Source: Parasporobacterium paucivorans DSM 15970 (GTDB lineage: Bacteria; Bacillota; Clostridia; Lachnospirales; Lachnospiraceae). From it: a stretch of DNA of 64,000 nucleotides. The position numbers and the translations under genes are program-made. This document shows, piece by piece, positions 29,600-60,638 of this stretch. The notes under the pieces are model-generated. The model ran no database searches and was not told the DNA's origin. It saw nothing but the letters and a program-made list of their open reading frames with translations. Location: contig NZ_FQYT01000007.1 of NCBI RefSeq assembly GCF_900141895.1, positions 1 through 64,000 on the forward strand, written 5' to 3'. Numbering within the stretch: the stretch's first letter is position 1; every line of letters starts with the position of its first letter.

Positions 29600-29608
29600 C
29601 AATACTGA

Positions 29609-36745: not shown

Positions 36746-37132
36746 TTAATCGGTGCTTTTCTGCAGTTCATCTATCAGCTGTGCCACCAGACGGTCCACA
36801 ATGGACAGGATAGCCGGGAAATCCTCCGGTTTGCCATTGTCATAATGTATTCCGCAAGCTACGGCTACGATTGTATTCAGTGAACTGGCAAGCCGATTGG
36901 CTGCTGATTCGGCAACGCTGCCTTCCTTATGTCCAACGACAGAAAGGATGGAGGATGTCGCACTGAGCATGGATGGATCTGCCAGCGACGGACGGGGCTG
37001 GGAAAGTGCAACACTTCCAATGTGGGGGAGGTCTCCTCCGCTTAACGAAACCACCAGGTTTGATCCCTGTCTGCAGGCCGTGATGGAGATATCCTTGTCT
37101 TTGTAGGTTTCCTTAATAGTTATGATGTTCAT
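36746..37132 (-). CDS. LpdD-like (prenylated-flavin chaperone domain) protein
   Basis: 128 residues. The pattern GGDLPHIGSVALSQPRPS, then SATSSILSVVGHKEGSVAESAANRLASSLN and VAVACGIHYDNGKPED matches the small LpdD-type domain, whose namesake is the small subunit of gallate decarboxylase and is thought to help load prenylated FMN into UbiD-type decarboxylases. No UbiD gene is adjacent or elsewhere in the window, but a UbiX gene is at 45240. AAGGGGA precedes the ATG. Stand-alone members occur in many anaerobes and archaea, so its partner is uncertain. Confidence 0.65.
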   Translation of the reverse strand: MNIITIKETYKDKDISITACRQGSNLVVSLSGGDLPHIGSVALSQPRPSLADPSMLSATSSILSVVGHKEGSVAESAANRLASSLNTIVAVACGIHYDNGKPEDFPAILSIVDRLVAQLIDELQKSTD

Positions 37133-39642: not shown

Positions 39643-39674
39643 AAGATACCTGTGGCTTTGGCTGCAGGTATCTT
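39643..39674 (+). terminator. Stem-loop between livK and livG
   Basis: 10-bp stem AAGATACCTG/CAGGTATCTT without a long T-run. Such hairpins often lower expression of the transporter core relative to the abundant binding protein. Confidence 0.6.
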
Positions 39675-39769
39675 TCGGTATACCGATGGTATCTTGTATT
39701 AAAGAGGTACTTGTGCTATCATATAAGAATATAAATAAGGGTCTTTATTAATACTTGGGAGGTAAAAAT

Positions 39770-41220: not shown

Positions 41221-41232
41221 GAGGTTGAAAAG

Positions 41233-42105: not shown

Positions 42106-42120
42106 GGGAGGTAAGGAAGA

Positions 42121-43174: not shown

Positions 43175-44014
43175 TCAAACTGGGGCAATGGGAATCTGCA
43201 GCTGGCAGAAGTCCACTTCACGGTCGTTTCCGTAGAATATTGCATCCATAATGCATTCATCATATATGTTTCCTGTTATTTTATAACCATTTTCGTAAAT
43301 CCAGCGCACGAGCTTTTTTACATGGGAAAATTCATAAGGCATGCCATATTTTGACATGCAGACATATTTTCCTTCCGGAAAGATTAAGGTGTTTTCCGTT
43401 ATGGTCATATCGTTGGGGACGAAGGTGCACCCTCCGGCCACATGAAGGGGATTCTCGGACTCCAGGTGTTCTGCGAACAATACGGCCCCCCATCGCCTGC
43501 TTGGAAGGTATCCGAAAGTCGATGTGAAATTCCATATTTTCAGCAAAGCGTTATGCAGCTCCGTGCGTGTATATACCCCTTCGGTCCAGGGGATCCAGAT
43601 AGCATGTCTCTCAGGAAAATACTCGATAGTGGGCTTGTTGAATTCCTGGCTGTATTCGCTTGCTGACTTGTAAATGCTGACCCTTTCCTGAATCTGCTTT
43701 TTCTGGATCTGCATAAGTCCGATCTGCTCGTCTATTTTATTCTGCTGATCATCCAGCAGCTTCATGGTGTCATCCGTGGATTCGCCGGTGGTAGTTTCCT
43801 TGATGTCTTCCAGCTTAACGCCGATGGATTTGAGGAAGCAGATTTCCTTAAGAAGGGGAATCTGCATGGAACTGTAATACCTGTATCCGTTTTCGTCCAC
43901 AAAAGCTGGTCGGAAAAGATTGATCTTATCATAATAAATAAGCGTCTGTCTTGAAATGTCATGTATCTGTGACATTTCAGAAATGGTAAGCATAACATTC
44001 TTTTCATCTTTCAA
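43175..44014 (-). CDS. MerR-family regulator with BmrR-like effector domain, copy 1
   Basis: N-terminal MerR helix-turn-helix (ISEMSQIHDISRQTLIYYDKINLFRPAFVDENGYRYYSSMQIPLLKEICFLK pattern), a long coiled coil (about residues 75-110, rich in Q/K/E) and a C-terminal GyrI/BmrR-like effector domain ending in VDFCQLQIPI. TTG 44014 has GGAGGG eight bases upstream; an internal ATG at 43993 has a weak site and an ATG at 44053 no good site. It is a clear paralog of the protein at 46134-47060. Both are prime candidates to control the six 19-bp-spacer promoters between 44.2 and 49.8 kb. Confidence 0.87.
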   Translation of the reverse strand: MKDEKNVMLTISEMSQIHDISRQTLIYYDKINLFRPAFVDENGYRYYSSMQIPLLKEICFLKSIGVKLEDIKETTTGESTDDTMKLLDDQQNKIDEQIGLMQIQKKQIQERVSIYKSASEYSQEFNKPTIEYFPERHAIWIPWTEGVYTRTELHNALLKIWNFTSTFGYLPSRRWGAVLFAEHLESENPLHVAGGCTFVPNDMTITENTLIFPEGKYVCMSKYGMPYEFSHVKKLVRWIYENGYKITGNIYDECIMDAIFYGNDREVDFCQLQIPIAPV

Positions 44015-44216
44015 TATGTATACCCTCCAAAATATGATTGTTAAAAAACACACATTATCCCTATAATAGCATAAATTGGTGCGTATTGAAAGAATGTTAA
44101 ATATGCCGACATGAAGCGGACGTTTTATCCGTATTGGGAATCAATTTTCGGTAATATATGCATTACTCATAAAATATCAAAAGCTTTATTGTGAAATATG
44201 TCTCCGCAAATAAGGT

Positions 44217-44247: not shown

Positions 44248-44280
44248 TAGATATATAAAATGAATGCGAGGGTGATTTTA

Positions 44281-45189
44281 ATGACAGACTTACAAATCAG
44301 GTGTTTTTTGGATGTGGCTAAAACTCTGAATTTTAGCAGTTCCGCAAGAAACCTGTTTATTTCGCAATCCAACATCAGCAGACAGATATCGATGCTCGAA
44401 GAAGAACTGGGGTTCATGCTATTTAATAGAACCACTAAGACGGTCAAACTTACGGCTGCTGGTGAAATAATGTCAGAGAAATTAAATGAAATGACCCTGC
44501 AGTGGGAAGAAACCCTCCTGGAAGCCCAGAGGACGGTTAATAAAAGCGAGGGACGCATCAGCATTGGGTGCACCCCGCATATCAAGACTAACAGTTTCCT
44601 TTCACAGATGCTTTCTGACTACCGATCTAAAAACAAGGGAGTACAGATTATTAAAGAAAGAAATACCCAGAAAAAACTGATTGAAGGCCTTTTGAACGGA
44701 TATTATGACGCGATACTGATTGCGAACCATGACGTATGCCGATTGAAAAATGTTGAAGCCCTCTCATTGTTTGAGTCCCAGGTAGGCATTGTTCTACACA
44801 AGAACTTTCCGTGCTTTGGGGATGAAGAAATCAGCCTGTCAGATTTGTCTGGATACGATTTCATCAGGTATAAGCCAACAGATATTCCTTTGGAAGAAGA
44901 TTTCCTGTATCAGGTCTGCGTGTACTTCGGTTTCGAGCCCCGAGTGAAGGCCGAGTTCGAAGACTTTGAAGAGTTTTTGTTTGCTATTGAGTCTGGTGAA
45001 GGCGTATCCCTGATATATGAGGAAGCCGAGATCATGGCAAATGAAAATCTCCGATTCATCCCGATACACGAAGATTGCCCGGCGAAATTCCTCCCGATGA
45101 AGCTTACCAGGAAGAAAACTAGCAAAAGCGATGTTTTAAATGATTTCTTTAAGTTTGCGGCACACTACGCCATTCATCATGCGATATAG
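44281..45189 (+). CDS. LysR-family transcriptional regulator
   Basis: 302 residues: LysR winged helix in the first 60 (QIRCFLDVAKTLNFSSSARNLFISQSNISRQISMLEEELGFMLFNRTTKTVKLTAAGE) and a periplasmic-binding-like effector domain (RISIGCTPHIKTNSFL onwards). ATG 44281 has GAGGGTGA six bases upstream; an ATG at 44260 lacks a site. It is itself preceded by shared promoter site A, so it appears to be a member of the regulon and perhaps a second control layer over the neighbouring UbiX gene or the transhydroxylase. Confidence 0.88.
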   Translation: MTDLQIRCFLDVAKTLNFSSSARNLFISQSNISRQISMLEEELGFMLFNRTTKTVKLTAAGEIMSEKLNEMTLQWEETLLEAQRTVNKSEGRISIGCTPHIKTNSFLSQMLSDYRSKNKGVQIIKERNTQKKLIEGLLNGYYDAILIANHDVCRLKNVEALSLFESQVGIVLHKNFPCFGDEEISLSDLSGYDFIRYKPTDIPLEEDFLYQVCVYFGFEPRVKAEFEDFEEFLFAIESGEGVSLIYEEAEIMANENLRFIPIHEDCPAKFLPMKLTRKKTSKSDVLNDFFKFAAHYAIHHAI

Positions 45190-45207: not shown

Positions 45208-45244
45208 AGTGCCATGCGCATCAGCGCATGGCACTTTCTTTATT
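45208..45244. terminator. Bidirectional terminator
   Basis: 12-bp perfect stem AGTGCCATGCGC/GCGCATGGCACT, four-base loop, T-rich tail. Separates the convergent LysR and UbiX genes. Confidence 0.9.
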
Positions 45245-45824
45245 TAACTGTATCAAGTCCGTCTGGATCCCATCTGTGGAAGCGGCTGCAGGATATTCCG
45301 TATACACCGAGAATCTTGCCCACCATATGGTAGATCATATCGTCGATGGTTTTCGGCTTATTATAGAAGGTCTGCATAGGAGGCATTATAATGGCGCCCA
45401 TGTTTGAGAGTGTCAGCATATTATTCAGGTGGATAGGGCTTAAGGGGGTTTCCCGTGCTACAAGAACCAGCTTCCGCCTTTCCTTGATGGTAACATCGGC
45501 GGCTCTCAGCAGCAGATTGTCTGAATAGCCGGTTGTAATTCCTGCCAGGGTCTTCATACTGCAGGGGACGATTATCATTCCTTCAGTTTGGAAGGTTCCG
45601 CTGGCAATGCTTGCCCCGATGTCGTTCAGGTTATAGTGATGCCCGCATAAGTCCAGCAGGTCCTGTTCTGTATAGGAACTTTCCATTTCCAGCGTTCGAA
45701 GAGCACCCTTGGATATCACCACATGGCTTTCCCATTCTGGATTGTTTTTGATCTCTCTGAGCAGTTCAACGGCAATAGGCAGACCGCTGGCCCCGCTGAT
45801 ACCGATTACAAGCCTTTTCTTCAC
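45240..45824 (-). CDS. ubiX: UbiX-family flavin prenyltransferase
   Basis: 194 residues; makes prenylated FMN for UbiD-type (de)carboxylases. Motifs: VIGISGASGLPIAVELL at the start, the FMN-binding Ser/Pro region IIVPCSMKTLAGITTGYSDNLLLRAADVTIKERRKLVLVARETPLS and the C-terminal segment GAIIMPPMQTFYNKPKTIDDM. GTG start at 45824 with GGAGG upstream. It is expressed from shared site B. No UbiD partner lies in the window; by analogy with gallate or phenolic-acid systems the decarboxylase may be elsewhere. Confidence 0.93.
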   Translation of the reverse strand: MKKRLVIGISGASGLPIAVELLREIKNNPEWESHVVISKGALRTLEMESSYTEQDLLDLCGHHYNLNDIGASIASGTFQTEGMIIVPCSMKTLAGITTGYSDNLLLRAADVTIKERRKLVLVARETPLSPIHLNNMLTLSNMGAIIMPPMQTFYNKPKTIDDMIYHMVGKILGVYGISCSRFHRWDPDGLDTVK

Positions 45825-46133: not shown

Positions 46134-47060
46134 TCAACTGTTTTTCTTGCGGATCGGAATCTGGATCTGACAGAAATCGACCTCGTAATCCTTATCGTAG
46201 AATGTCTGATCCAGGAAACATTCGTCATAGATATCACCGATGATTTCATAGTCGTTTTTCTCAATCCAGTCGACCAGATAATATATATACTTTATTTCAT
46301 AGGGCATGCCGTATTTGCTCATGCAGGCGAAATCGCCTTCCGGTATGGTGATGATGCCCTCCATGCCTTCGTCCACTTCGCAGTCCAGGGGCAGGTTCGC
46401 ATATCCGCCGGCTTCCCGGATGAGATCGCCGCTAGCCAGGTTTCTGGAATGAAGCATGGCACCCCAGCCGTTTTCTACATAAAGCCCATACCGCTCCAGT
46501 TCTGTCCAGGCCTGCATGAGGGCAAGATGCAGAACGGTTCGGTTCATATCCGTTGTATTCCATGGAAAGAAACAGATTTTTCTTTCCGGGAAATGTTCGA
46601 TGAAAGGTTTGAGGGCTGTATCCTTGTAAATTCCAGCTTTTTTATACACGTTCAGTCGGTTGGTCAGAGATGCACATTTCTTGCGCAGGTCAAGGATTTC
46701 ATTTTCCAGATCGGCTTTCTGGACGGTCAGGAAATCAATAGCACTGTCAAAGTTCCTGGTGTAAACATGGGAGTTGATGTCCTTCAAAGAAATTCCGATG
46801 GATTTGAGGAAGCAGATTTCTCTTAAAAAGGGTATGGATTGGGGACTGTAATACCGGTACCCGTTTTCTCCCACTAGATCCGGCTGGAAAATTCTGTTCT
46901 TGTCATAATAAATAAGAGTTTGTCGCGAAATTCCGTTGATTCTTGCCATTTCGGATATGGTATATTTAGCCTTTTCCGGCAGTTCCTTAACGTTCTGGGG
47001 TTCTTCGGGGTTTACGGATTTGGAATCCCTGGATGAAACCCTGTTTGTAAATGCTGGCAT
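46134..47060 (-). CDS. MerR-family regulator with BmrR-like effector domain, copy 2
   Basis: 308 residues. Same architecture as the protein at 43175-44014: YTISEMARINGISRQTLIYYDKNRIFQPDLVGENGYRYYS, coiled coil, and an effector domain with EGDFACMSKYGMPYE and VDFCQIQIPI that are almost word for word shared with copy 1. It carries an extra ~32-residue polar N-terminal extension; AGGAGG before the ATG at 47060 supports that long start. A minus-strand promoter TTGACG-17-CATAAT lies upstream. The effector domain type binds small, often aromatic ligands, which would fit a polyphenol signal. Confidence 0.88.
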   Translation of the reverse strand: MPAFTNRVSSRDSKSVNPEEPQNVKELPEKAKYTISEMARINGISRQTLIYYDKNRIFQPDLVGENGYRYYSPQSIPFLREICFLKSIGISLKDINSHVYTRNFDSAIDFLTVQKADLENEILDLRKKCASLTNRLNVYKKAGIYKDTALKPFIEHFPERKICFFPWNTTDMNRTVLHLALMQAWTELERYGLYVENGWGAMLHSRNLASGDLIREAGGYANLPLDCEVDEGMEGIITIPEGDFACMSKYGMPYEIKYIYYLVDWIEKNDYEIIGDIYDECFLDQTFYDKDYEVDFCQIQIPIRKKNS

Positions 47061-47693: not shown

Positions 47694-47785
47694 CACAATT
47701 GTTTGGTAGAGGTAAAGGGAAAATGAATGGTGTGCTGCTTTTTTGCGGAAAAAAGTGGTAAATATGATTAAAGGGGGAAATGACA

Positions 47786-49288
47786 TTGGCTTTAGCAATT
47801 GCTTTGGTGTACTTCGTTGCACTCATTATCGTTGCCAGTCTTTACACAAGAAAGAAGGTTAAGACTGCAGCAGACTTCGCTGATGCTGGCGGACAGATGG
47901 GATGGGTTCTGGTTACGTTCGCATTCGTATTGGCGCCTTTAGGATCAGGACATACTATGTCTCTTTGGGAGGCATCAACCGGACCACTTGGAGCCTCAGC
48001 AGCAATGTGGGGTATCGGTGCAGGTGCAATCTTCCTGCCGCTCGCAATGCTCTGGTTTGGACCATGGATGCATGAGTCCGGATGTAAAACAGTTCCACAG
48101 ATTATTGAAAAAATTTACGGTAAGAAACTCGGTTTCCTTCATGCCTGCGTCCAGACGATGACTTGGACCGGAATCGGAGCATCTGAGACAATCGCGACCG
48201 GTACAGCTATCTATGGTCTGAGCGGCGGAAAAATTCCTTTCCAGCCATGGTGTATCCTGATTGGATTCTGTCTGATCGTATGCTACGTATTGTTCGGCGG
48301 CCTTCTTCAGATGGCATGGCTGAACATCATCAACTCCATCGTTATGATCATCGGTTCTTATACAGCCCTTTTCCTTCTGGGCGGATACCTGGCTGCCAAC
48401 CTTGGCGGATGGGGATATGTTAAAGACTTTTACGAAGGTCTTGGAACCGTTGGAAAACTGACCCAGTTAAATTTAGGAAATCAGGGCGTTTGGTTCAATA
48501 TCATCCTGCCTGTTATCATTCTTCATTCCACCGCCGGCGGTGTGGCTCAGGTTATGATGCAGCCTTTCTTCGGTGCAAAAGATTCACAGTCCTGCCGTAA
48601 AGGTGTTTTCCTTGGAGCCGGCATCAACTTCATGTCCTGCGTTCCTTGGGTATGTATGGGTCTGATTGGTATGACCATTCCTTCTGTTGTATCTGCAGGC
48701 GGATCTAATATTGGAAAGCTTGTAGTTCCTCTGCTTGCCCAGGAAGCACTTCCTGCCCCAATCGTTGGACTTCTTATGATTGCGTTGCTTTGCGCAACTC
48801 TTTCAACAGGCGGTGGTATCGTACTCGCAAATGCGAACGTTGTTACCACAGATATTATTAAAGGTGCTCTGTTCCCTAACATGAAGGACAAGACAGAAAT
48901 GAACCTGATGAAAGTCATGATCATCGTATGTGCGGTTCTCCTTGTTATTCCTGCTCTTACTGTTCCGGTAGTAATGCCAGTATTCCTCTGGGTGTTCTCA
49001 TTCGGTATGCCAGTATTCGTAGTCTTTATTATCGGTCTGCACTGGAAAATCAACAGAACAGCTGCATGGGTTACCATCGTTGTCGCTTTTATAGTAGATC
49101 TTATCTGGACATTTGTACCAAGTGTGGCCAATTCAATGCCTGCACCGTTCAATGTTAATATGTACGCCGTATTGCTTGTATCTATCGTATTTGGTGTTGT
49201 ACTTACGGCGATACTGCCTGGAAAACCTGGCCTTAGAAGACAGGTAAGAATGGATGCAAGGGCTGCAAAAGCTAGAGCAAATGCATAA
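47786..49288 (+). CDS. Sodium:solute symporter (SSS family)
   Basis: About 500 residues with 13 or so hydrophobic helices. SSS/SLC5-type features include the N-terminal TRKKVKTAADFADAGGQMGW, the GSGHTMSLWEAS helix, GIGASETIATGTAIYG and CATLSTGGGIVLANANVVTTDI. The family takes up organic anions, amino acids or sugars with Na+. TTG 47786 is eight bases after AAAGGGGG; the ATG at 47780 is only two bases after it, so TTG is preferred. It heads an operon with two small membrane peptides and is driven by site E, so its substrate is probably an aromatic acid such as gallate; this is inference. Confidence 0.9.
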   Translation: MALAIALVYFVALIIVASLYTRKKVKTAADFADAGGQMGWVLVTFAFVLAPLGSGHTMSLWEASTGPLGASAAMWGIGAGAIFLPLAMLWFGPWMHESGCKTVPQIIEKIYGKKLGFLHACVQTMTWTGIGASETIATGTAIYGLSGGKIPFQPWCILIGFCLIVCYVLFGGLLQMAWLNIINSIVMIIGSYTALFLLGGYLAANLGGWGYVKDFYEGLGTVGKLTQLNLGNQGVWFNIILPVIILHSTAGGVAQVMMQPFFGAKDSQSCRKGVFLGAGINFMSCVPWVCMGLIGMTIPSVVSAGGSNIGKLVVPLLAQEALPAPIVGLLMIALLCATLSTGGGIVLANANVVTTDIIKGALFPNMKDKTEMNLMKVMIIVCAVLLVIPALTVPVVMPVFLWVFSFGMPVFVVFIIGLHWKINRTAAWVTIVVAFIVDLIWTFVPSVANSMPAPFNVNMYAVLLVSIVFGVVLTAILPGKPGLRRQVRMDARAAKARANA

Positions 49289-50171: not shown

Positions 50172-52832
50172 ATGCAAAATGAAAATGTAAGTTGCGTTAC
50201 CGTGGGAGCAGGAACTTCTGCATGCAGCATCAACGGATCGCAGGAAGTGCGCATGACAAATTCCAGTACGGGCGGTCCTGTTTTCGTATATGTAAAAGAC
50301 GGAAAAATTGTCAGACTGACTCCAATGGATTTTGACGAAACTGATCCTGAATCCTGGAAAATCGAAGCCAGAGGCAAGGTATTTACACCACCAAGAAAGA
50401 CTACAATCGCTCCATTCACAGCTGGACAGAAGTCTATGGTATATTCAGACAAGAGAATTTTATATCCAATGAAACGTGTGGATTTCGATCCTAACGGCGA
50501 AAGAAACATCCAGAACCGTGGTGTTTCCGGATATGAAAGAATCAGCTGGGATGAAGCTGCAGAAATAGTATGCGGCGAAGTAAACAGAATTAAACGCGAA
50601 TATGGACCAAGTGCCATCCTTTCAACACCAAGTTCCCATCATTTATGGGGTAACGTAGGATACCGCCACTCAACATATTTCCGTTTCATGAATATGATGG
50701 GATTCACTTATGCAGATCATAATCCAGACAGCTGGGAAGGCTGGCACTGGGGCGGAATGCATATGTGGGGATTCAGCTGGAGACTTGGTAACCCAGAGCA
50801 GTACGATCTTCTTGAAGATGGTCTGAAATATGCAGAAATGATCGTATTCTGGTCATCTGATCCTGAGGTTAACAGTGGTATCTACGCTGCGTTTGAATCC
50901 ACTATCAGACGTAAATGGTTAAAGGACCTGGGCGTTAAGATGGTATTCATCGATCCTTTCTTCAACCATACAGCAAACTGGATTGGCGACAAATGGTTCT
51001 CACCAAAAACTGGTACAGACCATGCTCTTTCCTTTGCAATCGCTTACACATGGTTAACAGAAGGATCCTACGATAAAGAATATGTTGCTACACATGCATA
51101 TGGATTTGAAGAATGGTCAGAGTATGTACTCGGAAAGACCGACGGAGAGCCAAAAACATGTGAATGGGCTGAAAAAGAGACAGGCATTCCAGCTTGTGAT
51201 ATCAGAGCTCTTGCCCGTGAATGGGGCAAAAAGAACACATACCTTGCTGCCGGCGGTTTAGGCGGATGGGGTGGCGCTTGCCGTGCTACTCATGGTATTG
51301 AATGGTCACGTGGTATGATTGCTCTCGCTACCATGCAGGGAATGGGTAAACCAGGCTCTAACATGTGGAGTACAACACAGGGCGCACCACTTGACACAGA
51401 ATTCTACTTCCCAGGATACGCTGAAGGCGGAATCTCCGGTGACTGCGACAACTCTGCTGCAGGCTTCAAGTTTGCATGGAGAATGTTCGACGGAAAAACC
51501 ACTTTCCCATCACCATCCAACATCAATAATGGACAGGGACAGCACATTCCAAGACTTAAAATTCCAGAATGCATCATGGGCAAAGAATTCCAGTGGTCTG
51601 GTAAAGGCTTCTGCGGCGGAGACATTCCTCACCAGATGCATCAGTACCAGTATCCAGCTCCTGGATATTCAAGAATCAAAATGTACTGGAAATATGGCGG
51701 ACCACACATCGGAACCATGACCGCTACTAACAGATATGCCAAGATGTACACGGATTCAGAACTTGATTTCGTAGTAAGCCAGTCTATCTGGTTTGAAGGT
51801 GAAGTTCCATTCGCAGATGTCATCCTGCCTGCTTGTACAAACTACGAGCGTTGGGATATCTCAGAGTTCGCTAACTGCTCCGGTTACATTCCGGACAACT
51901 ATACACTGTGTAACCACCGTGTAATCTCCTTACAGATGAAATGTATCGAGCCACTCGGAGAATCAAAATCCGATTACGATATCTATGCATTCTTTGCAAA
52001 GAAATTAGGCTTCGAAGGACAGTTCACTGAAGGAAAAGACGAACTGGCATGGGTTGAGCAGTATTACAATGCTACTGACTGTCCAAAACTCATGACATTT
52101 GCAGATTTCTTCAAAAAAGGCTACCTGGTAGTTCCAGATAACACAACACGTAAGAAAACTGTTGCTCTCAGATGGTTTGCTGAAGAGAGAGAAAAAGATA
52201 CTCCAGACTGGGGTCCACGTTGCAACAACTCTGTTGGATACAAAGGCCTTCAGACCCAGACAGGTAAAGTTGAGTTTATTGCTACCAGCATTAAGCGCTT
52301 CGAAGAGCAGGGATTTGTGGATGAATACCGTCCAGCTATGCATACCTATGTAAAAGCTTGGGAAAGTCACCACTGCGAACTTGCAAAGAAATATCCTTTG
52401 GGAATGCTTTCACCTCATCCAAGATTCTCCATGCATACCATGGGCGATGGAAAAGACAGCTTCATGAACGACATCAAAGATCACCGTGTAGAAGTTGACG
52501 GCTATTCTTACTGGATTATCCGTATCAACTCTGAAGATGCTGCGGCTCGCGGAATCAAAGAAGGCGACCTTGTAAGAGCATTCAATGACCGTGGATCCGT
52601 TATCCTTTATGCACAGGTTGGTGAGCGTACACAGCCAGGAACAGTTCATTCCTATGAATCCTGCGCGGTTTACGATCCACTTGGAAAACCAGGATGCTCA
52701 GCTGACAGAGGCGGATGTGTAAACATTCTTACTCCAGATCGCTATATGTCCAAATATGCTTGCGGTATGGCACCAAACAGTGCTCAGATCGAAGTTGAAA
52801 AATGGAACGGGGATATTTACGAAATCTACTAA
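50172..52832 (+). CDS. athL: Pyrogallol:phloroglucinol transhydroxylase, large subunit
   Basis: Molybdopterin enzyme of the DMSO reductase superfamily, 886 residues. From residue 27 (RMTNSSTGGPVFVYVKDGKI) the protein tracks the Pelobacter acidigallici enzyme closely, as I remember it. With a +12 offset the known active-site residues are present: His156 (His144), Asp186 (Asp174), Ser187 as Mo ligand (Ser175), Trp188 (Trp176) and Tyr416 (Tyr404). It has no N-terminal 4Fe-4S motif, as expected. The reaction turns pyrogallol into phloroglucinol using a tetrahydroxybenzene co-substrate, without net electron transfer. A ~23-residue N-terminal extension with two cysteines (CVTVGAGTSAC) is unusual. 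Related catechol dehydroxylases and acetylene hydratase are alternatives but lack this close match. Confidence 0.93.
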   Translation: MQNENVSCVTVGAGTSACSINGSQEVRMTNSSTGGPVFVYVKDGKIVRLTPMDFDETDPESWKIEARGKVFTPPRKTTIAPFTAGQKSMVYSDKRILYPMKRVDFDPNGERNIQNRGVSGYERISWDEAAEIVCGEVNRIKREYGPSAILSTPSSHHLWGNVGYRHSTYFRFMNMMGFTYADHNPDSWEGWHWGGMHMWGFSWRLGNPEQYDLLEDGLKYAEMIVFWSSDPEVNSGIYAAFESTIRRKWLKDLGVKMVFIDPFFNHTANWIGDKWFSPKTGTDHALSFAIAYTWLTEGSYDKEYVATHAYGFEEWSEYVLGKTDGEPKTCEWAEKETGIPACDIRALAREWGKKNTYLAAGGLGGWGGACRATHGIEWSRGMIALATMQGMGKPGSNMWSTTQGAPLDTEFYFPGYAEGGISGDCDNSAAGFKFAWRMFDGKTTFPSPSNINNGQGQHIPRLKIPECIMGKEFQWSGKGFCGGDIPHQMHQYQYPAPGYSRIKMYWKYGGPHIGTMTATNRYAKMYTDSELDFVVSQSIWFEGEVPFADVILPACTNYERWDISEFANCSGYIPDNYTLCNHRVISLQMKCIEPLGESKSDYDIYAFFAKKLGFEGQFTEGKDELAWVEQYYNATDCPKLMTFADFFKKGYLVVPDNTTRKKTVALRWFAEEREKDTPDWGPRCNNSVGYKGLQTQTGKVEFIATSIKRFEEQGFVDEYRPAMHTYVKAWESHHCELAKKYPLGMLSPHPRFSMHTMGDGKDSFMNDIKDHRVEVDGYSYWIIRINSEDAAARGIKEGDLVRAFNDRGSVILYAQVGERTQPGTVHSYESCAVYDPLGKPGCSADRGGCVNILTPDRYMSKYACGMAPNSAQIEVEKWNGDIYEIY

Positions 52833-52865
52833 AGTAAAATGGACCGAAAACTGAAAGGAGAATTA

Positions 52866-53696
52866 ATGATGAAACAGAAATATATAGTTATTGATGTTCG
52901 TTGGTGCCATGACTGCAACAACTGCTTCATGGGATGCAAAGATGAGCATGTAGACAACAATTGGGAAGGCTATACAGCCGCTCAGCCTCGTCACGGCCAT
53001 CGTTGGATGAACATCGAAAGAAGAGAGCGTGGAAAATATTCCCGTAATGATGTTAAATTCCTTCCGATGCCATGCCAGCATTGCGAAAACGCTCCTTGCG
53101 TTGCAGCTAGCAAAGGCGCTATTACCAGACGTGAAGACGGTATCGTTATGATCGATATGGTAGCAGCAAAAGGAAACAAAGAGCTGGTTGATTCATGTCC
53201 ATACGGAGCAATCTACTGGAATGATGAAGCTGATATCGCTCAGAAATGTACCATGTGTGCACACCTTCTTGACAGCGCTGAATGGGCTCCTAAAATGCCA
53301 AGATGCGTACACAACTGCCCAACAGGATCCATGTCATTCTATGACTGCGAGCCTGAAGAAATGGCTAAACTGGCTGCTGCAGAAGGACTGGAAGCATACA
53401 AGGCTGAACTGGGAACCAACCCACACGTTCTGTACAAAAACCTTTTCATGTTCACCAAAAACTTCGTAGCTGGCGGAATCACCGTTGATGGCGACTGCTT
53501 CGAAAATGCAACAGTAACACTTGAACAAGACGGTAAGGTACTCCAGACCGCTCAGACCAACTTCTTTGGAGATTTCAAATTTGATGGTCTGGAAGATGGT
53601 GAATACACAGTTAAAGTTGATGCTGCTGGCAAAGCACAGTCAAGCAACGTTACAATAGCTGGAAAATCACTGAATCTCGGATTTATCGCGTTTTAA
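52866..53696 (+). CDS. athS: Pyrogallol:phloroglucinol transhydroxylase, small Fe-S subunit
   Basis: 276 residues. Ferredoxin-like domains with three 4Fe-4S sites' worth of cysteines: VRWCHDCNNCFMGCKDEH, PMPCQHCENAPCV, SCPYGAIYW, QKCTMCAHLL and RCVHNCPTG. The last ~80 residues (VAGGITVDGDCFENATVTLEQDG ... GDFKFDGLEDGEYTVKVDA) form a transthyretin/CnaB-like domain, the same domain order as the Pelobacter small subunit. AAAGGAG lies before the tandem ATGATG (52866/52869). It follows athL by 33 bp and forms the heterodimer with it. Confidence 0.93.
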   Translation: MMKQKYIVIDVRWCHDCNNCFMGCKDEHVDNNWEGYTAAQPRHGHRWMNIERRERGKYSRNDVKFLPMPCQHCENAPCVAASKGAITRREDGIVMIDMVAAKGNKELVDSCPYGAIYWNDEADIAQKCTMCAHLLDSAEWAPKMPRCVHNCPTGSMSFYDCEPEEMAKLAAAEGLEAYKAELGTNPHVLYKNLFMFTKNFVAGGITVDGDCFENATVTLEQDGKVLQTAQTNFFGDFKFDGLEDGEYTVKVDAAGKAQSSNVTIAGKSLNLGFIAF

Positions 53697-53718
53697 TATT
53701 GAAAGGACGTATTAACGT

Positions 53719-54273
53719 ATGAAGAAATTAGTAATATACAACGGAAGTCCCCGTATGGATGGAAACACCGTAACTCTTTTAAATCTCGTGGCACAGGGTG
53801 CAAGGGATAATGGCGCGGAAGTGGATTTTTACACTCTGTTCAAAATGAAGTTTATGGCTTGCCAGAGCTGCTTTGGATGCCGCATGAATGACGACTGTGT
53901 GATTAAAGATGAGTTGCACACCGCCCTTCAGAAGGTCAAAGAAGCGGATGCAGTGGTAATCGGTTCTCCGATTTACTTCATGCAGATGTCAGGACCGGTA
54001 AAGAACTTATATGACAGATTGTTCCCTTTGGTTGGCCAGGACGGCACACCGAGGTTCGGGACGAAGAAGATTGCGACCGTCTATTCACAGGGAATGGAAG
54101 ATGAGCATGCTTATGATTCCTACTTTGACTACATTTCTTCTACGTATCCTGCTTACGGATTTGAATGGGCCGGCAACATTGTGTGCACCCAGGCGAATAA
54201 TCCGGAATCTGCGGAACATAACCAGGAATTAAAGATTCGTGCCTATGAGTTAGGAAAGCAACTTGCATTGTAA
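53719..54273 (+). CDS. NAD(P)H-dependent FMN reductase/flavodoxin-like protein
   Basis: 184 residues; flavodoxin-fold IsfD/NADPH-FMN reductase type: YNGSPRMDGNTVTLLN (FMN phosphate loop, residues 7-22), FMACQSCFGCRMNDDCVIKDEL with a CX2CX2C-like cluster or redox cysteines, and GSPIYFMQMSGPVKNLYDRLF. GAAAGG precedes the ATG, 22 bp after athS, so it is in the athLS operon. It might keep the transhydroxylase cofactor or co-substrate reduced, or reduce a ring intermediate; the role is inferred from position. Confidence 0.82.
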   Translation: MKKLVIYNGSPRMDGNTVTLLNLVAQGARDNGAEVDFYTLFKMKFMACQSCFGCRMNDDCVIKDELHTALQKVKEADAVVIGSPIYFMQMSGPVKNLYDRLFPLVGQDGTPRFGTKKIATVYSQGMEDEHAYDSYFDYISSTYPAYGFEWAGNIVCTQANNPESAEHNQELKIRAYELGKQLAL

Positions 54274-54398: not shown

Positions 54399-55091
54399 TT
54401 AAAATTTGATTCTGAATAATAATTTATCAATATGATACTGACGGATATTCTGGTAGTGGTTCTTCATAGCAGCGGCAGCGGCGTCCGGATCCCGGGAGAG
54501 GAAAGCATCCAGTACGGCTTTGTGTTCCCGGGAGGAACGGCTTGCCTGGGTACGCTCTTCTGTTGCGGTGGCTTTAAAACGGGAGCTCTGGGCATCTAAT
54601 GGCTCGAACTGCTCCATCAATCTCTGGTTGCCGGAATTGACAATGAAGAACTGGTGGAAGTCGTGGTCCCAGCGGACAAAATCGTTTATATCGTCGGATT
54701 GCAGGGATGCCTCCATGGAATGAAAAATATCGGATATTTTCTGCACGGGAATGCGGTCGTAGTTCTGGATGCAGCGCTGTATGGCGTAAATCTGCATGAT
54801 CTCCATCAGGTCATAAACCTCCAGAATGTCCTCGATGGTATATTCCGGAACGGTCGCCCCCTGACCGGGCACAAATTTCAGAAGTCCCTCGTGGGTCAGC
54901 TGGTTCAAGGCATCCCGGATGGGCGTGCGGCTCATGTCGTACATCTCGCTGAGTTTTCTTTCGGACAAAACGGTGCCGGATGGGAAGACATGGCTGGTAA
55001 GCGCGTTTTTAATATAATTATATGCCTGGGATTTCTTGTTTTCAAATTCTTCAGACGCTATGGGGCTATTGACGATGTTTGTCTCTTTCAT
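54399..55091 (-). CDS. GntR-family (FCD) transcriptional regulator
   Basis: 230 residues: winged helix with VFPSGTVLSERKLSEMYDMSRTPIRDALNQLTHEGLLKFVPGQGATVPEY (residues ~35-85) and an all-helical FCD effector domain with metal-ligand pattern D...H in RWDHDFHQFFIVNSGN and H in SSREHKAVLDAFLSRD. Such regulators usually bind small organic acids. Divergent from the molybdenum cofactor operon and convergent to athLS, so it could control either. It has none of the TTGACT/19-bp promoter elements. Confidence 0.9.
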   Translation of the reverse strand: MKETNIVNSPIASEEFENKKSQAYNYIKNALTSHVFPSGTVLSERKLSEMYDMSRTPIRDALNQLTHEGLLKFVPGQGATVPEYTIEDILEVYDLMEIMQIYAIQRCIQNYDRIPVQKISDIFHSMEASLQSDDINDFVRWDHDFHQFFIVNSGNQRLMEQFEPLDAQSSRFKATATEERTQASRSSREHKAVLDAFLSRDPDAAAAAMKNHYQNIRQYHIDKLLFRIKF

Positions 55092-55257: not shown

Positions 55258-55450
55258 AAACTCCGAACTTGAATTTCTAAGGCGAAAGCTATGAATTCAA
55301 GCCTGAATGTTTCACGACATTCACAGGGTACTGCTGGAAACGGCATTGCCTTCCGTTATTAGAAGGAGATATTTTATCAAAGCATTCATTGTATGATGCC
55401 GGGTTTATGACCTGATGATAGAACCTCTGCCTTTGACAGGGGTTTTTTAT
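55258..55450 (+). promoter_or_regulatory. Candidate Moco-type riboswitch with terminator
   Basis: A leader of about 190 nt folds into several hairpins. An 8-bp CTTGAATT/AATTCAAG arm is capped by GGCGAAAGC. Next come CCTGAATG with CATTCACAGG, TGCTG-GAAA-CGGCA with a GNRA loop, and CCTTC/GAAGG. It ends in an intrinsic terminator (55422-55429 with 55437-55444, T-run to 55448) located before the ribosome site. Multi-arm aptamer plus terminator upstream of molybdenum cofactor genes is the layout of Moco (or Tuco) riboswitches. I cannot align it to the known consensus by eye, so the class is tentative. Confidence 0.55.
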
Positions 55451-55483
55451 TTGTCCAAATTCAGTATTAAGGAGAATAATCAT

Positions 55484-57199
55484 ATGGCATTTCATACACC
55501 AGTTGTGTCTTTTGTAGGGTATTCGGGCTCAGGAAAGACCACATTCATAGAGAAACTGATACCTGAGCTGAAGAGAAAAAATCTAAGAATTGCCGTAATA
55601 AAGCATGATGCGCACGAATTCGATATAGATCGGGAAGGCAAGGATACCTGGAAGTTTGCACAGGCAGGAGCGGATATCATATCCATATCCTCCCGGACCA
55701 AGATGGCCCTGATTGAGAAGACGCCCGTGGAGCTCACTCTGGCAGAGATCATGCTCAATGTCCGGGATGTGGACCTCATCATCGCGGAAGGATACAGAGC
55801 GGGAGGAGCCCCCAAGATAGGCGTATACAGGGAGGCTTCCGGCCACGAGCTGTCCGTTCCGGTGCAGGAATTAGAGGCACTCGTCTGCGACAGGAAGATT
55901 ACCGATGAGATTCCCTGTTTCGGTCTGGATGATGTAAGCGGAATGGCCGATTTCCTTGTGGAACATTTCGTCCGCAGGATTCCCTTTGGGATTCCCCTGG
56001 GGGAAGCGCTGAAGAAGCTGGAAGATATCCCGGTAGAGCTTACGTATGAAGAGGTCGGCATTGACAAGTCCAGAGGAAGGGTTCTGGCGGAGACGGTCAT
56101 TGCCAAAGAGATGATACCTCCTTTTTCCCGTTCGCCCCTGGATGGATACGCATTCCGCGCATCGGATACCGAAAATGCATCCAGAAAAGCACCCGTGACC
56201 CTGCAGATTACCGAGGAAATCCCTGCTGGCACTTACCCGCAGAAAGAAGTGCTTCCAGGTACCGCGGCGAAAATCCTGACAGGAGCTCCAATTCCAAAAG
56301 GTGCAGATGCAGTGACCAGGTATGAGGATACAGAATTTGACTCGGACACAGTCACCCTGTTTCAGTGCTATAAGCCGCATTCCAACATTGTGGACGCAGG
56401 AGAGGATATTGCCCTGGGAACGGAAGTCGTGACAGAAGGCACGGTCATAACGCCCTCCATTGCAGGACTGCTGGCTTCCCTAGGCGTTGCAAGACCCCGC
56501 GTGGTGCGAAAGCCGGTCATTAGCATCGTCAATACAGGCGATGAGCTGCTGGATGTGAACATGCCCCTGGAACCGGCCAAAATCCGCAACAGCAGCCATT
56601 ATACCCTGGGCGGGTATATGGAAGAGACTGGAGTCACGGTTCTGGATGGAGGCATAGCCAGGGATACAGCCCAGGAAATAGCCCGGTCCATCAGGACGGC
56701 TTTAGCCTTCTCAGATATGGTCGTCACCACCGGCGGCGTATCGGTGGGGGATTATGACCTGGTGAAGGACGCCCTGAAGCTTTTGGGCGCCGAAACCCTG
56801 TTCTGGAAAATTGCCATCAAGCCAGGAGGCGCCGTTGTGGCTGCCGTGCTGGACAAGAAACTGATTCTGGGACTTTCCGGAAATCCGGCTTCGGCCCTGG
56901 TAACCTTGCAGCTGCTGGGGATTCCTTTTATCCACAGACTGATGGGACGCAGTGAGTGCGGCCTTCGGAAAGTGCAGGTGGCTATGTGCCGGAATTATAT
57001 GAAACCAAGTCCGACGGGAAGATATATCCGGGGACGCCTGACGATCGAAGAGGGAAAGGCTTGCTTTGAACCCATCGAATCCCAGGAAAACGGCTCCATT
57101 TCCTCCATGAAAGGATGCAACCTGATTGCGGAAATCAAACCGGGAACCCTTACCATAGAGAAAAATCAGATGATCGATGCCTATTGGTTATATAGCTAA
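55484..57199 (+). CDS. moeA: MobB-MoeA fusion, molybdenum insertion protein
   Basis: 571 residues. The first ~165 are MobB-like: P-loop GYSGSGKTTF (12-21), KHDAHEFDIDREGKDTWKFAQAGAD and the GYRAGGAPKIGVYR segment. The rest is MoeA: PPFSRSPLDGYAFRASD, TGAPIPKGADAV, SIVNTGDELLD, VTTGGVSVGDYDLVKDAL, GLSGNPASALVTLQLL. MoeA ligates molybdate to adenylated molybdopterin; MobB aids dinucleotide cofactor formation. ATG 55484 with AAGGAG upstream and the terminator before it rule out the ATG at 55415. Transhydroxylase needs the MGD form, so a MobA must be encoded elsewhere. Confidence 0.93.
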   Translation: MAFHTPVVSFVGYSGSGKTTFIEKLIPELKRKNLRIAVIKHDAHEFDIDREGKDTWKFAQAGADIISISSRTKMALIEKTPVELTLAEIMLNVRDVDLIIAEGYRAGGAPKIGVYREASGHELSVPVQELEALVCDRKITDEIPCFGLDDVSGMADFLVEHFVRRIPFGIPLGEALKKLEDIPVELTYEEVGIDKSRGRVLAETVIAKEMIPPFSRSPLDGYAFRASDTENASRKAPVTLQITEEIPAGTYPQKEVLPGTAAKILTGAPIPKGADAVTRYEDTEFDSDTVTLFQCYKPHSNIVDAGEDIALGTEVVTEGTVITPSIAGLLASLGVARPRVVRKPVISIVNTGDELLDVNMPLEPAKIRNSSHYTLGGYMEETGVTVLDGGIARDTAQEIARSIRTALAFSDMVVTTGGVSVGDYDLVKDALKLLGAETLFWKIAIKPGGAVVAAVLDKKLILGLSGNPASALVTLQLLGIPFIHRLMGRSECGLRKVQVAMCRNYMKPSPTGRYIRGRLTIEEGKACFEPIESQENGSISSMKGCNLIAEIKPGTLTIEKNQMIDAYWLYS

Positions 57200-57210
57200 G
57201 GAGAAAAAAT

Positions 57211-58158
57211 ATGAAAGATACATTTAACAGGGATATATATTATTTGAGACTTTCCGTAACAGACTTTTGCAACCTGCGCTGTAAATACTGCATGCCTGCT
57301 GACGGTGTGGAACATATGGAGCATGAGGACATCATGTCTGTGGAGGAAATCGAAAAAGTCGTCAGGGCATCCGCAAAGAGCGGCATCCGCAAAATCAGGC
57401 TGACAGGCGGAGAACCCCTTGTACGCAAAGGTATCGTGTCTATCTGCGAAAAAGTTTCTGCCGTGGAGGGAATCGAGGAAGTGTGCATGACCACCAATGG
57501 AATCCTGCTTCCGAAATTCGCCAAAGACCTGAAGGCGGCTGGACTGCACAGGCTCAACATCAGCCTGGATACCCTGAACCCGGAGAAATATGCGGACATC
57601 ACCAGGGGCGGAAAGCTCTCGGATGTTCTGGACGGAATACGCAGCGCGGAGGAAGCCGGGTTCACCAACCTGAAGCTGAATGTAGTGCTGATGGGCGGCC
57701 ACAATGACGATGAGATCGTGGATTTTGTGAACCTGACCAGAGACAATGCCATCCAGGTCCGTTTTATCGAGTTGATGCCGATGGGACAGTGCCAGGACTG
57801 GGACCACAACGTATTCCTGACAGCCGAGACCGTCCTCGAAAAAGTGGATGGACTGCAGCTGGAGAGGACAGAAGGCGTGGCCACTCTGTACAAACTGGAC
57901 GGCGCCAAAGGTTCCGTAGGACTTATCCGCCCGATGAGCAACCATTTCTGCCCGACCTGCAACCGCGTGCGCATCACCTCGGACGGGCGCCTCAAGGCCT
58001 GCCTCCATTCAGAGCATGAAGTGAACCTGAGGGGGCTCGAAGAGGAGCTGCTGGAGAGCACTATCCGGGAGGCCATCAGCCACAAACCCCAGAATTTCAA
58101 CCTGAGCACCGAATGTCCGAGCCAGAGCAAAAGATATATGAACCAGATAGGAGGCTGA
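57211..58158 (+). CDS. moaA: GTP 3',8-cyclase MoaA
   Basis: 315-residue radical SAM enzyme for the first step of molybdopterin synthesis. N-terminal cluster CNLRCKYC (C-X3-C-X2-C, residues 18-25), RLTGGEPLVRKG, and the C-terminal GTP-binding cluster CPTCNRVRITSDGRLKACL (C-X2-C-X13-C). It ends in the conserved Gly-Gly needed for activity. GGAG precedes the ATG, 11 bp after moeA. Confidence 0.97.
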   Translation: MKDTFNRDIYYLRLSVTDFCNLRCKYCMPADGVEHMEHEDIMSVEEIEKVVRASAKSGIRKIRLTGGEPLVRKGIVSICEKVSAVEGIEEVCMTTNGILLPKFAKDLKAAGLHRLNISLDTLNPEKYADITRGGKLSDVLDGIRSAEEAGFTNLKLNVVLMGGHNDDEIVDFVNLTRDNAIQVRFIELMPMGQCQDWDHNVFLTAETVLEKVDGLQLERTEGVATLYKLDGAKGSVGLIRPMSNHFCPTCNRVRITSDGRLKACLHSEHEVNLRGLEEELLESTIREAISHKPQNFNLSTECPSQSKRYMNQIGG

Positions 58159-58160
58159 TT

Positions 58161-58643
58161 ATGGAAGGATTAACACATTTTAATAAAGAGGGCAGAGCCA
58201 CCATGGTGGACGTGTCCGACAAGGCCATCACAACCAGGACAGCCACAGCCTGTGCCACGGTCAAACTCAACGAAAATACATACAAGCTTGTCCGGGAAGG
58301 CAAGATGAAGAAAGGGGACGTGCTGGCGGTTGCCCAGGTAGCCGGAATCATGGCGGCAAAGAAGACCCCCGATATAATACCCATGTGCCATCCCATCGCC
58401 CTGACCAAGGTGGATATTTCCTACGAAATGGATGACGAAAAGAGCACCATCTACATTGAAAGCACCACAAAATGCAAGGGGGAAACGGGTGTGGAAATGG
58501 AAGCCCTTACAGCGGCCTCCGCATGCGCCCTTACCATATATGATATGTGCAAAGCGATACAGAGAGACATTGAAATAAGCGATATCCACCTGCTGACGAA
58601 GTCAGGCGGAAAAAGCGGCGATTATAATTACAAAGGAGAATAA
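58161..58643 (+). CDS. moaC: Cyclic pyranopterin monophosphate synthase MoaC
   Basis: 160 residues; acts after MoaA. Conserved blocks: LTHFNKEGRATMVDVSDKAITTRTATA, MKKGDVLAVAQVAGIMAAKKTPDIIPMCHPIALTKVDI, GVEMEALTAASACALTIYDMCKA and LTKSGGKSGDY. ATG 58161 has AGGAGG upstream and starts two bases after the moaA stop. Confidence 0.97.
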   Translation: MEGLTHFNKEGRATMVDVSDKAITTRTATACATVKLNENTYKLVREGKMKKGDVLAVAQVAGIMAAKKTPDIIPMCHPIALTKVDISYEMDDEKSTIYIESTTKCKGETGVEMEALTAASACALTIYDMCKAIQRDIEISDIHLLTKSGGKSGDYNYKGE

Positions 58644-58647
58644 GAAA

Positions 58648-59082
58648 ATGGCTACAGTAACTTCCGTAAATATCAGTGAAAAAAAAGGCGTCAGGAAAAA
58701 CAGGGTCGATGAGATCGTTTTGAAGAGAGAAGTAGGGATTGAAGGAGATGCCCATGCAGGCAATTGGCACAGACAGATCAGCCTTCTGGCAGAGGAGAGC
58801 GTGGACAAGGCGAAACAGATAATTCCGGGGCTTACTCCCGGAGCGTTCGCAGAAAACATCAACACCAGAGGAATGGAGCTGTTCACGCTGCCGGTAGGAA
58901 CCAGACTGAAGATCGGTTCTGCCCTGACGGAAGTGACACAGATCGGCAAGCAGTGCCATGACAGCGGATGTGCCATCAAAAAAGCGACCGGAGACTGCGT
59001 AATGCCCAGAGAAGGAATCTTTGTCCAGGTTTTAGAAGACGGAACAGTAAAATCTGGAGATGAAATTACAATAATAGAATAA
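58648..59082 (+). CDS. MOSC-domain protein
   Basis: 144 residues matching stand-alone MOSC proteins: VTSVNISEKKGVRKN, GIEGDAHAGNWHRQISLLAEES, PGAFAENINTRGMEL, LPVGTRLKIG and the conserved Cys in IGKQCHDSGCAI. MOSC domains bind the molybdenum cofactor and may transfer sulfur to it. Lies in the cofactor operon four bases after moaC. Confidence 0.9.
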   Translation: MATVTSVNISEKKGVRKNRVDEIVLKREVGIEGDAHAGNWHRQISLLAEESVDKAKQIIPGLTPGAFAENINTRGMELFTLPVGTRLKIGSALTEVTQIGKQCHDSGCAIKKATGDCVMPREGIFVQVLEDGTVKSGDEITIIE

Positions 59083-59094
59083 TCGGAGCGTGCC

Positions 59095-60120
59095 ATGAAG
59101 AAAATAAGCGTATATGACAGTGTCGGCCACGTACTGTGCCACGACATGACAAGAATCGTAAAAGGTGAAATGAAAGGACCGCAGTTCAAAAAAGGACATG
59201 TGGTCACGGCAGAAGACATCCCGATGCTTCTTTCAATGGGAAAAGAGAATATCTTTGTGTGGGAGAAGGTAGAAGGAATGGTGCATGAAGATGATGCGGC
59301 CCCCAGACTGAGGGATATCTGCATCAATGAAAATATGTCCGCTTCCGAACCGAGCGAAGGAAAGATAGAGATATTTGCGGACTGTGATGGATTGTTCAAG
59401 GTGGACGTGGAAAGGCTCAATGCCATAAATTCACTGGGTGAGATCATCATTGCCACCAGGCATGGCAACACTCCCGTGAAAAAAGGAGACAAGCTGGTTG
59501 GTACCCGAATCATCCCGCTGATTATAGAAGAAGAGAAGATAGAAGAAGCCGAAAGACTGGCGGGCAAGGAACCTCTGCTTACGCTTCTGCCTTTCAAACC
59601 TATGAAAGTGGGCCTGCTGACCACCGGAAGCGAAATCTTCCATGGAAGGATCAAGGATACCTTCACACCGGTAATCGTAGGAAAACTGGAGAAATACGGC
59701 CTGGAAGTTGCTGAACACAAGCTGGTGGATGACGACGATGAAATGCTGGTAAATTCCATCCTGGAAATGAAAGAAAAAGGCATGGACCTGATTCTTTGCA
59801 CAGGCGGCATGAGTGTGGATCCGGATGATAAGACCCCGGGCGCCATCAAAAAGACCGGGGTGGATATCGTGACCTACGGCGCACCCGTGCTGCCGGGAGC
59901 CATGTTCCTGCTGGGATATTTTGAGGACGGCACCCCGGTCATGGGACTGCCGGGCTGCGTAATGTATGCCAAAGCCACCATATTTGACCTGGTTCTGCCG
60001 AGGATAGCAGCCGGAGAAAAAGTGACCAGAGAAAGCCTGATGGGATTCGGACACGGCGGACTCTGTCTTGGATGCGACGTCTGCGTATTCCCGAACTGCG
60101 GGTTCGGCAAGGGATACTAA
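59095..60120 (+). CDS. Molybdopterin-binding protein with Cys-rich tail
   Basis: 341 residues. Central MoCF (MoeA/MogA-like) domain: KVGLLTTGSEIFHGRIKDTFTPVIVGKLEKYG, LVDDDDEMLVNSILEM, LILCTGGMSVDPDDKTPGAI and LPGAMFLLGYFEDGTPVMGLPGC. The N-terminal ~170 residues lack the MoeA extra domains in usual form. The tail reads C-L-G-C-D-V-C-V-F-P-N-C before GFGKGY: four cysteines in 12 residues, a likely metal or cluster site, and I recall similar tails in homologs. It probably handles molybdopterin insertion for a subset of enzymes. Confidence 0.82.
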   Translation: MKKISVYDSVGHVLCHDMTRIVKGEMKGPQFKKGHVVTAEDIPMLLSMGKENIFVWEKVEGMVHEDDAAPRLRDICINENMSASEPSEGKIEIFADCDGLFKVDVERLNAINSLGEIIIATRHGNTPVKKGDKLVGTRIIPLIIEEEKIEEAERLAGKEPLLTLLPFKPMKVGLLTTGSEIFHGRIKDTFTPVIVGKLEKYGLEVAEHKLVDDDDEMLVNSILEMKEKGMDLILCTGGMSVDPDDKTPGAIKKTGVDIVTYGAPVLPGAMFLLGYFEDGTPVMGLPGCVMYAKATIFDLVLPRIAAGEKVTRESLMGFGHGGLCLGCDVCVFPNCGFGKGY

Positions 60121-60143
60121 AAGGCGCAAAGAAAGGGGAACCT

Positions 60144-60638
60144 ATGTATAGTGCTGCAGTAATAACCGTAAGTGATAAGGGAAGCGCCGGACTCCGGGAA
60201 GACACCGCAGGACCTGCTGTGGAAGAAATCCTCAAAGCCGCCGGCTATGAGATTGTGTACACATCCATCATACCGGATGAAGCAGAAATCATAAAAGATG
60301 AGCTGATAAAAACCGCCGATGAAATGCAGATCGCTCTGGTCGTTACCACCGGGGGGACCGGATTTTCCAAGAGGGACGTAACACCGGAAGCAACCATTGC
60401 CGTATGTGAAAAGCTGACTCCGGGCATACCCGAGGCTATGCGTGCAGAAAGCATGAAAGTGACCAACCGGGCCATCCTGTCCCGGATGGCGGCAGGAATC
60501 AGGGGAGAGACCCTGATCGTCAATCTGCCTGGAAGTCCCAAGGCTGCCAAAGAAAACCTCTTAACGGTTGTTCCATCTTTAGAACATGGTCTGGATATTT
60601 TGAGGGGAAATAAACACGATTGCGCGGTAAATTCATAA
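60144..60638 (+). CDS. mogA: Molybdopterin adenylyltransferase MogA/MoaB type
   Basis: 164 residues; adenylates molybdopterin before metal insertion. MoCF signature: AAVITVSDKGSAGLREDTAGPAVEEIL and LVVTTGGTGFSKRDVTPEATIAVCEKLTPGIPEAMR, then LIVNLPGSPKAAKENL. ATG 60144 follows AAAGGGG; an ATG at 60072 lies inside the previous gene. Last gene of the cofactor operon. Confidence 0.94.
   Translation: MYSAAVITVSDKGSAGLREDTAGPAVEEILKAAGYEIVYTSIIPDEAEIIKDELIKTADEMQIALVVTTGGTGFSKRDVTPEATIAVCEKLTPGIPEAMRAESMKVTNRAILSRMAAGIRGETLIVNLPGSPKAAKENLLTVVPSLEHGLDILRGNKHDCAVNS

Follow-up and report, generated by a model that had tools for sequence, protein, structure and literature searches.

Pyrogallol is a breakdown product of tannins, and transhydroxylase is a molybdenum enzyme that rearranges hydroxyl groups. 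The gallate/pyrogallol route has been studied since the 1980s and 1990s in Pelobacter acidigallici and in Eubacterium oxidoreducens, a Gram-positive Firmicute long known to degrade both compounds (PMC10470551, from which the phloroglucinol pathway and its enzymes are also taken here); genes annotated as pyrogallol hydroxytransferase occur in the Gram-positive Desulfitobacterium hafniense (PMC3306737), and the requirement for a tetrahydroxybenzene co-substrate has been described (PMC13039779). Here we analyse a putative pyrogallol:phloroglucinol transhydroxylase module, athL-athS-athF, in Parasporobacterium paucivorans DSM 15970 (Lachnospiraceae), within the first 64,000 nucleotides of contig NZ_FQYT01000007.1 (hereafter the window). 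Both transhydroxylase subunits are encoded at positions 50172-53696. Judged by homology, conserved active-site residues, phylogeny and patterns of gene content and co-occurrence, athL-athS very probably encodes a cytoplasmic pyrogallol:phloroglucinol transhydroxylase; this would be the central reaction in the fermentation of gallate or tannins, with pathway genes elsewhere in the genome.

In a phmmer search of the PDB, AthL matched the Pelobacter acidigallici transhydroxylase 4v4c_A at 1734 bits over residues 24-886, while the next group, trimethylamine N-oxide/dimethyl sulfoxide reductases, reached 256 bits at best. Identity to the crystallised enzyme is 82.9% over 863 aligned columns for AthL (reference sequence transcribed from the PDB search result) and 62.6% over 273 columns for AthS. 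Pelobacter H144, D174 and Y404, which we take to be catalytic, and S175, presumably the molybdenum ligand, correspond to AthL H156, D186, Y416 and S187 at a constant offset of +12; Y152, R153 and W176 are likewise conserved, with 152 and 176 checked at that offset. AthS keeps all 12 N-terminal cysteines, putative ligands of what we assume to be three 4Fe-4S clusters in the small subunit, and its C-terminal domain is present, the alignment reaching residue 273 of the solved chain. The close match, the constant offset of the active-site residues and the retained C-terminal domain had all been claimed in a preliminary description of this DNA, and all were borne out. Compared with the Pelobacter enzyme, AthL carries an N-terminal extension of about 21 residues, which is probably translated because the ATG at 50172 sits 10 nt past AAGGAGG. 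For AthS, the open reading frame opens at 52839 and ends at 53696, and a start at 52866 or 52869, past the Shine-Dalgarno-like AAAGGAG, is favoured. A structure model of AthL (18 sequences, mean predicted local distance difference test score (pLDDT) 67.4) also had 4v4c as its best Foldseek match (TMq 0.82 vs 0.66 for the next); the model is poor, and the match adds little to what the sequence shows.

One scan of 84,980 species genomes recovered 46 loci, among which distant AthL members are under-sampled because the peptide patterns used came from the window AthL. The AthL tree comprised 46 rows, after L046, L047, L049, L050, L051 and L054 had been dropped as short and L102 omitted as a likely duplicate of L012; of the short rows, L047, L050 and L051 were assigned to clade A solely on identity (80-85%), and L046, L049 and L054 on the same basis to the loci outside it, giving totals of 28 clade-A and 18 other loci. 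Clade A (27 rows, support 100/100) contains the Pelobacter enzyme, E. oxidoreducens and the window AthL, the last within a 17-row group alongside E. oxidoreducens and Lachnospiraceae-type sequences (100/98). Clade B (14 rows, 100/99) unites 13 loci from Family XIII, Oscillospiraceae and Clostridiales records with AthL2 of P. paucivorans, and L048 and L044 fall outside both clades. In a search of 61 relatives, P. paucivorans included, AthL was matched at E ≤1e-100 only in its own genome and in G024, apparently identical with the record L012.

Three further AthL-type enzymes in the genome (AthL2, AthL3 and AthL4; 63, 54 and 37% identical to the window AthL), together with the resorcinol hydroxylase RhL, a Ser-ligated relative of the transhydroxylase (PMC10100899), give some footing to the improbable alternative that AthLS is a family member that acts mainly on another compound, for example hydroxyhydroquinone or resorcinol (resorcinol-hydroxylase-like), and that a paralogue converts pyrogallol. 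However, only the window AthL, of the four, shares a clade with the solved pyrogallol enzyme, in a tree in which no RhL sequence was placed, and its identity to that enzyme stands against 63.0, 52.5 and 36.5% for AthL2, AthL3 and AthL4, respectively. That AthL is instead a reductive catechol dehydroxylase or a hydratase-type enzyme is scarcely credible: catechol dehydroxylases belong to the same superfamily and also act on phenols in gut bacteria, but in a published tree they lie nearest acetylene hydratase and apart from Pht (both PMC7028382), acetylene hydratase scored 44 bits with AthL against 1734 for the transhydroxylase, the genome encodes an acetylene-hydratase-like enzyme separately, just beyond the window, and AthL forms a clade with the Pelobacter enzyme in a tree that held no catechol dehydroxylase or acetylene hydratase rows, so this identity was dropped.

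The transhydroxylase assignment is accompanied by pathway genes elsewhere in the genome, where a search for phloroglucinol reductase and gallate decarboxylase yielded candidates for both. On contig C19, genes for PGR, TfD, DPGC, TAL, a thiolase and two CoA-transferase subunits run in one direction (the thiolase and CoA transferase named by eye), with PGR, DPGC, TfD and TAL all at 9914-13664. The best PDB match of the PGR candidate is 5g4k (321 bits vs 137 for the next protein), an entry titled 'oxidoreductase' that we take to be a phloroglucinol reductase structure. Identities to the E. oxidoreducens counterparts are 77% for DPGC, 64% for TfD, 53% for PGR and 49% for TAL. A 441-residue piece of UbiD matched 3,4-dihydroxybenzoate decarboxylase, presumably AroY, at 569 bits (next family, 217); the genome encodes both an AroY/LpdC-type UbiD and, in the window, UbiX. 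Pieces of UbiD lie at the ends of contigs C14 and C28 and an N-terminal piece at the end of C49; two near-identical copies are suggested because the C14 and C28 end pieces are ~98% identical over the first kilobase compared. UbiX would supply the cofactor of this decarboxylase encoded elsewhere, which may act on gallate or on protocatechuate. UbiD lies within 10 kb of athL in five of the 46 loci (L009, L010, L012, L026 and L035), and the LpdD-like protein of the window is 46% identical to a small protein adjoining UbiX in L026. VdcD was considered as a missing decarboxylase subunit and rejected, the matches in the genome (16.8 and 12.6 bits) being below the cut-off of 30. The gallate to pyrogallol to phloroglucinol route proposed in the preliminary description is thus supported by the C19 ring-cleavage cluster and the AroY-type decarboxylase; of the nearby genes that it invoked, UbiX and the cofactor operon stood, and the LpdD-like protein, though present, proved a weak match.

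Co-occurrence points in the same direction. With DPGC of this genome as query (E ≤1e-60), a match was found in 36 of 42 genomes with an AthL-family locus, namely P. paucivorans itself, 25/28 with clade-A loci and 10/13 with other loci. In the search of relatives, DPGC occurred in 4 of the 61 genomes, two of which carry AthL, leaving matches in 2/59 genomes without AthL (36/42 vs 2/59, Fisher p ~1e-18, with shared ancestry uncorrected and the two genome sets differing in taxonomic spread). In L020, L037, L051 and L052, DPGC (71-79% identity) lies within 10 kb of athL.

Gallate would be decarboxylated by the AroY-type UbiD, with prenylated flavin mononucleotide from UbiX and possibly the aid of LpdD. 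Pyrogallol would then bind at the Ser-ligated Mo-bis-molybdopterin guanine dinucleotide site of AthLS, where 1,2,3,5-tetrahydroxybenzene would serve as a recycled co-substrate and pyrogallol would be converted to phloroglucinol without net redox change. Subsequently, PGR of the C19 cluster would reduce phloroglucinol, DPGC would open the ring, TfD would oxidise the product, and TAL, the thiolase and the CoA transferase would cleave what TfD yields. Several points weigh against this scheme. The activity, substrate and direction of AthLS are predicted from sequence; the pathway genes are spread over several contigs rather than one operon; UbiD is interrupted by contig ends and seems to exist in two near-identical copies, so that its surroundings are uncertain; the LpdD-like protein has three LpdD sequences as its top three PDB matches, all weak (17.8 bits, E 0.033), and was not found in E. 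oxidoreducens; and six of the 42 AthL-family genomes, of unchecked completeness, gave no DPGC match.

The third gene, here named athF, begins 22 bp past athS on the same strand and, as stated in the preliminary description, completes the operon; its product belongs to the NADPH-dependent flavin mononucleotide (FMN) reductase family. Homologues were called by tblastn at E ≤1e-10, and loci with about 1.8 kb or more 3' of athL were regarded as having room. On the one hand, an athF homologue lies directly 3' of athS, on the same strand and within ~320 bp, in 23 of the 27 clade-A loci with room and 6.7 kb away in L022; within 10 kb none was found in L023, L024 or L039, even at E 1e-3. On the other hand, no homologue was found in any of the 16 loci with room outside clade A (18 loci in total), and the difference (24/27 vs 0/16) gives a Fisher p of 3.7e-9, uncorrected for ancestry. 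Four of these 16 loci (L033, L034, L045 and L053) also showed no AthS homologue in the DNA searched even at E 1e-3, though 2 to 8 kb follow athL, and their large subunits may work with another partner. In all seven non-Bacillota clade-A loci with room (L010, L017, L020, L021, L037, L047 and L050), their phyla being those labelled on the metagenome-assembled genome (MAG) records, athF directly follows athS. The gene travels with the transhydroxylase across phyla; this was less expected, as was the presence of three further AthL-type enzymes in the genome.

The athF product carries a motif of the CX2CX2CX5-7C type, the compact motif of iron-sulfur flavoproteins (ISFs; PMC3164229), within a predicted FMN-binding flavodoxin-like fold. 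All four cysteines of CX2CX2CX5C are present in 25 of 26 aligned sequences (L102, the likely duplicate of L012, among them), the remaining one having Ser at the second position. The fold model (mean pLDDT 79) matches FMN reductases, azoreductases, quinone reductases and SsuE, with TMq 0.48-0.69 among the 50 matches listed. None of the nine matches in a PDB sequence search was named ISF, the best being 7d38 (Cd1, flavone reductase) at 35 bits, and the product is described as ISF-like only, because a sequence match to a solved ISF was not found. Full-text searches of open-licence papers, PMC8624197 among them, gave no recognised account of such a flavoprotein partner. Most likely, as a hypothesis, the athF product holds the tetrahydroxybenzene co-substrate, or other trihydroxybenzenes that have become oxidised, in reduced form, or shields the enzyme against oxidants; our preferred guess is a reductase that keeps the easily oxidised trihydroxybenzenes or the co-substrate reduced. 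A broader and rather doubtful proposal is that AthF is a dedicated third component of the transhydroxylase, an ISF that makes or regenerates reduced tetrahydroxybenzene or keeps the Mo and Fe-S centres competent. It would have been transferred together with athLS among Bacillota, Acidobacteriota, Desulfobacterota and Actinomycetota; none of the other AthL-type loci analysed has it as a neighbour, and paralogues in the same genome would perhaps have been rewired as redox enzymes (AthL2 by a Hyf-like complex whose large subunit has no CxxC, AthL3 by Hdr-like and menaquinone-type genes).

As to these paralogues, AthL2 retains the catalytic residues checked. On contig C30 (L058:2143-12168), some 200 bp separate AthL2-AthS2 from a downstream set of Hyf-like membrane genes, HyfBCEFG; the absence of a CxxC motif from the HyfG-like large subunit speaks against a [NiFe] site, and no HyfI-like reading frame was recognised by eye in the cluster. 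The same Hyf genes, with an extra ferredoxin-like gene (by eye), occur in two genomes of the same order (L145 and L146). AthL2 plus Hyf-like genes as a conserved unit was rejected, since no HyfB or HyfG match above 60 bits was present in the 48 loci tabulated and no AthL match in the L145 and L146 stretches. The right end of C30 and the left end of C19 overlap (315/317 bases identical; L058, L095), which would put AthL2 perhaps ~10 kb from the phloroglucinol cluster in the chromosome. AthL3 (contig C24, L059:2804-11578) has an extra N-terminal stretch of ~150 residues without a Pfam match, and AthL3-AthS3 is followed by Hdr-like genes and by polyprenyl synthase, MenA and MenG (these three by eye); G024 (L147) partly repeats this order, with AthL3-AthS3 and Hdr-like genes. 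AthL4-AthS4 (contig C14, L060:6397-12661) lies opposite ApbE and an FMN-binding/ferredoxin membrane protein; no AthL4 residue aligns with Tyr404, and positions 152 and 153 are occupied by Ala and Cys. An 88% identical relative of AthL4 (L021:5690-8326) lies ~1 kb beyond the operon for a clade-A transhydroxylase in an Actinomycetes MAG.

The features of the module and its surroundings are listed below; MoaA, MoaC and MoaB were named by eye.

Features of the transhydroxylase module and neighbouring genes (positions in the window)
Feature	Position	Strand	Remarks
athL, transhydroxylase large subunit, Mo-bis-MGD	50172..52832	+	886 aa; homology, residues, tree
athS, small subunit, 12 conserved iron-sulfur cysteines and C-terminal beta domain	52866..53696	+	ORF from 52839
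athF, third gene, FMN-reductase-fold flavoprotein, C48-x2-C-x2-C-x5-C60 iron-sulfur-flavoprotein-like motif	53719..54273	+	
GntR/FCD regulator, convergent with athF	54399..55091	-	homologue near athL in 12/28 clade-A loci
SSS-family Na+ symporter, candidate uptake system	47780..49288	+	homologue near athL in 17/28 clade-A and 10/18 other loci
UbiX flavin prenyltransferase	45240..45824	-	UbiX subfamily models above cut-off; VdcB model 253 bits (below cut-off 290)
MerR-type regulator	46134..47060	-	E. oxidoreducens homologues <~7 kb from athL, and adjoining ubiX
Second MerR-type regulator, same kind as 46134..47060	43175..44053	-	
LysR regulator	44260..45189	+	57% identity to one near athL in E. 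oxidoreducens
LpdD-like prFMN chaperone homologue, 128 aa, weak match	36746..37132	-	~8 kb from UbiX
Molybdenum cofactor genes: MobB-MoeA fusion, MoaA, MoaC, MOSC, MoeA-like, MoaB/Mog-like	55415..60638	+	

Adjoining the regulators of the module, a branched-chain-amino-acid-type ABC transporter (38345-43101, by eye) is possibly used for aromatic-acid uptake. Two near-alike proteins, by eye URO-D-family methyltransferases, flank a permease at 27188-30748, and on contig C19 (L095:2076-3766) a B12-binding protein adjoins a URO-D-family protein; these URO-D-family proteins possibly take part in O-demethylation of methoxylated aromatics feeding gallate. Just beyond the window end (contig C21:64177 onward, L055:4178-12120) lies a molybdopterin enzyme whose nearest PDB match is acetylene hydratase (215 bits); a TorD-type/ferredoxin fusion, a DHODB-like reductase and an old-yellow-enzyme-type protein accompany it, and the set is a candidate catechol-dehydroxylase-like system.

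Taken together, the genome holds a near-complete genetic parts list for gallate fermentation in a gut-type Firmicute, an aid in predicting the route for uncultured bacteria of gut, termite and soil. If the flavoprotein is truly a partner, it has a bearing on the priming and reduced state of an enzyme that needs its own tetrahydroxybenzene co-substrate.

Among the described systems, the P. acidigallici transhydroxylase shares with AthLS both subunits, the active-site Ser, His, Asp and Tyr, the 12 iron-sulfur cysteines and the C-terminal beta domain; relative to it, AthL has the N-terminal extension, and in the window a flavoprotein gene lies downstream; the Pelobacter genome was unavailable as of 2023 (PMC10470551). 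The phloroglucinol cluster of Clostridium scatologenes, likened here by its description (PMC10470551), also groups PGR, DPGC, TfD and TAL families, whereas in P. paucivorans thiolase and CoA-transferase genes follow, and the genome also has a transhydroxylase and an AroY-type decarboxylase. E. oxidoreducens DSM 3217 (L018, L099 and L100) has MerR, LysR, SSS symporter, athL, athS, flavoprotein and GntR genes in a similar order, and its athL locus shares with the window a MoaC homologue, the only tabulated molybdenum cofactor gene matching near athL there. Elsewhere, as families also found here, it encodes UbiX-UbiD-MerR together and PGR-TfD-DPGC-TAL. It differs in that its AthL is 82% identical, LysR and GntR are differently oriented and UbiX lies on another contig. 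The novelty for Firmicutes implied by the preliminary description does not hold, because this long-known degrader (PMC10470551) shares the 27-row transhydroxylase clade and a similar gene order; with the route long studied and the gene set shared with E. oxidoreducens, the window locus belongs to a known kind.

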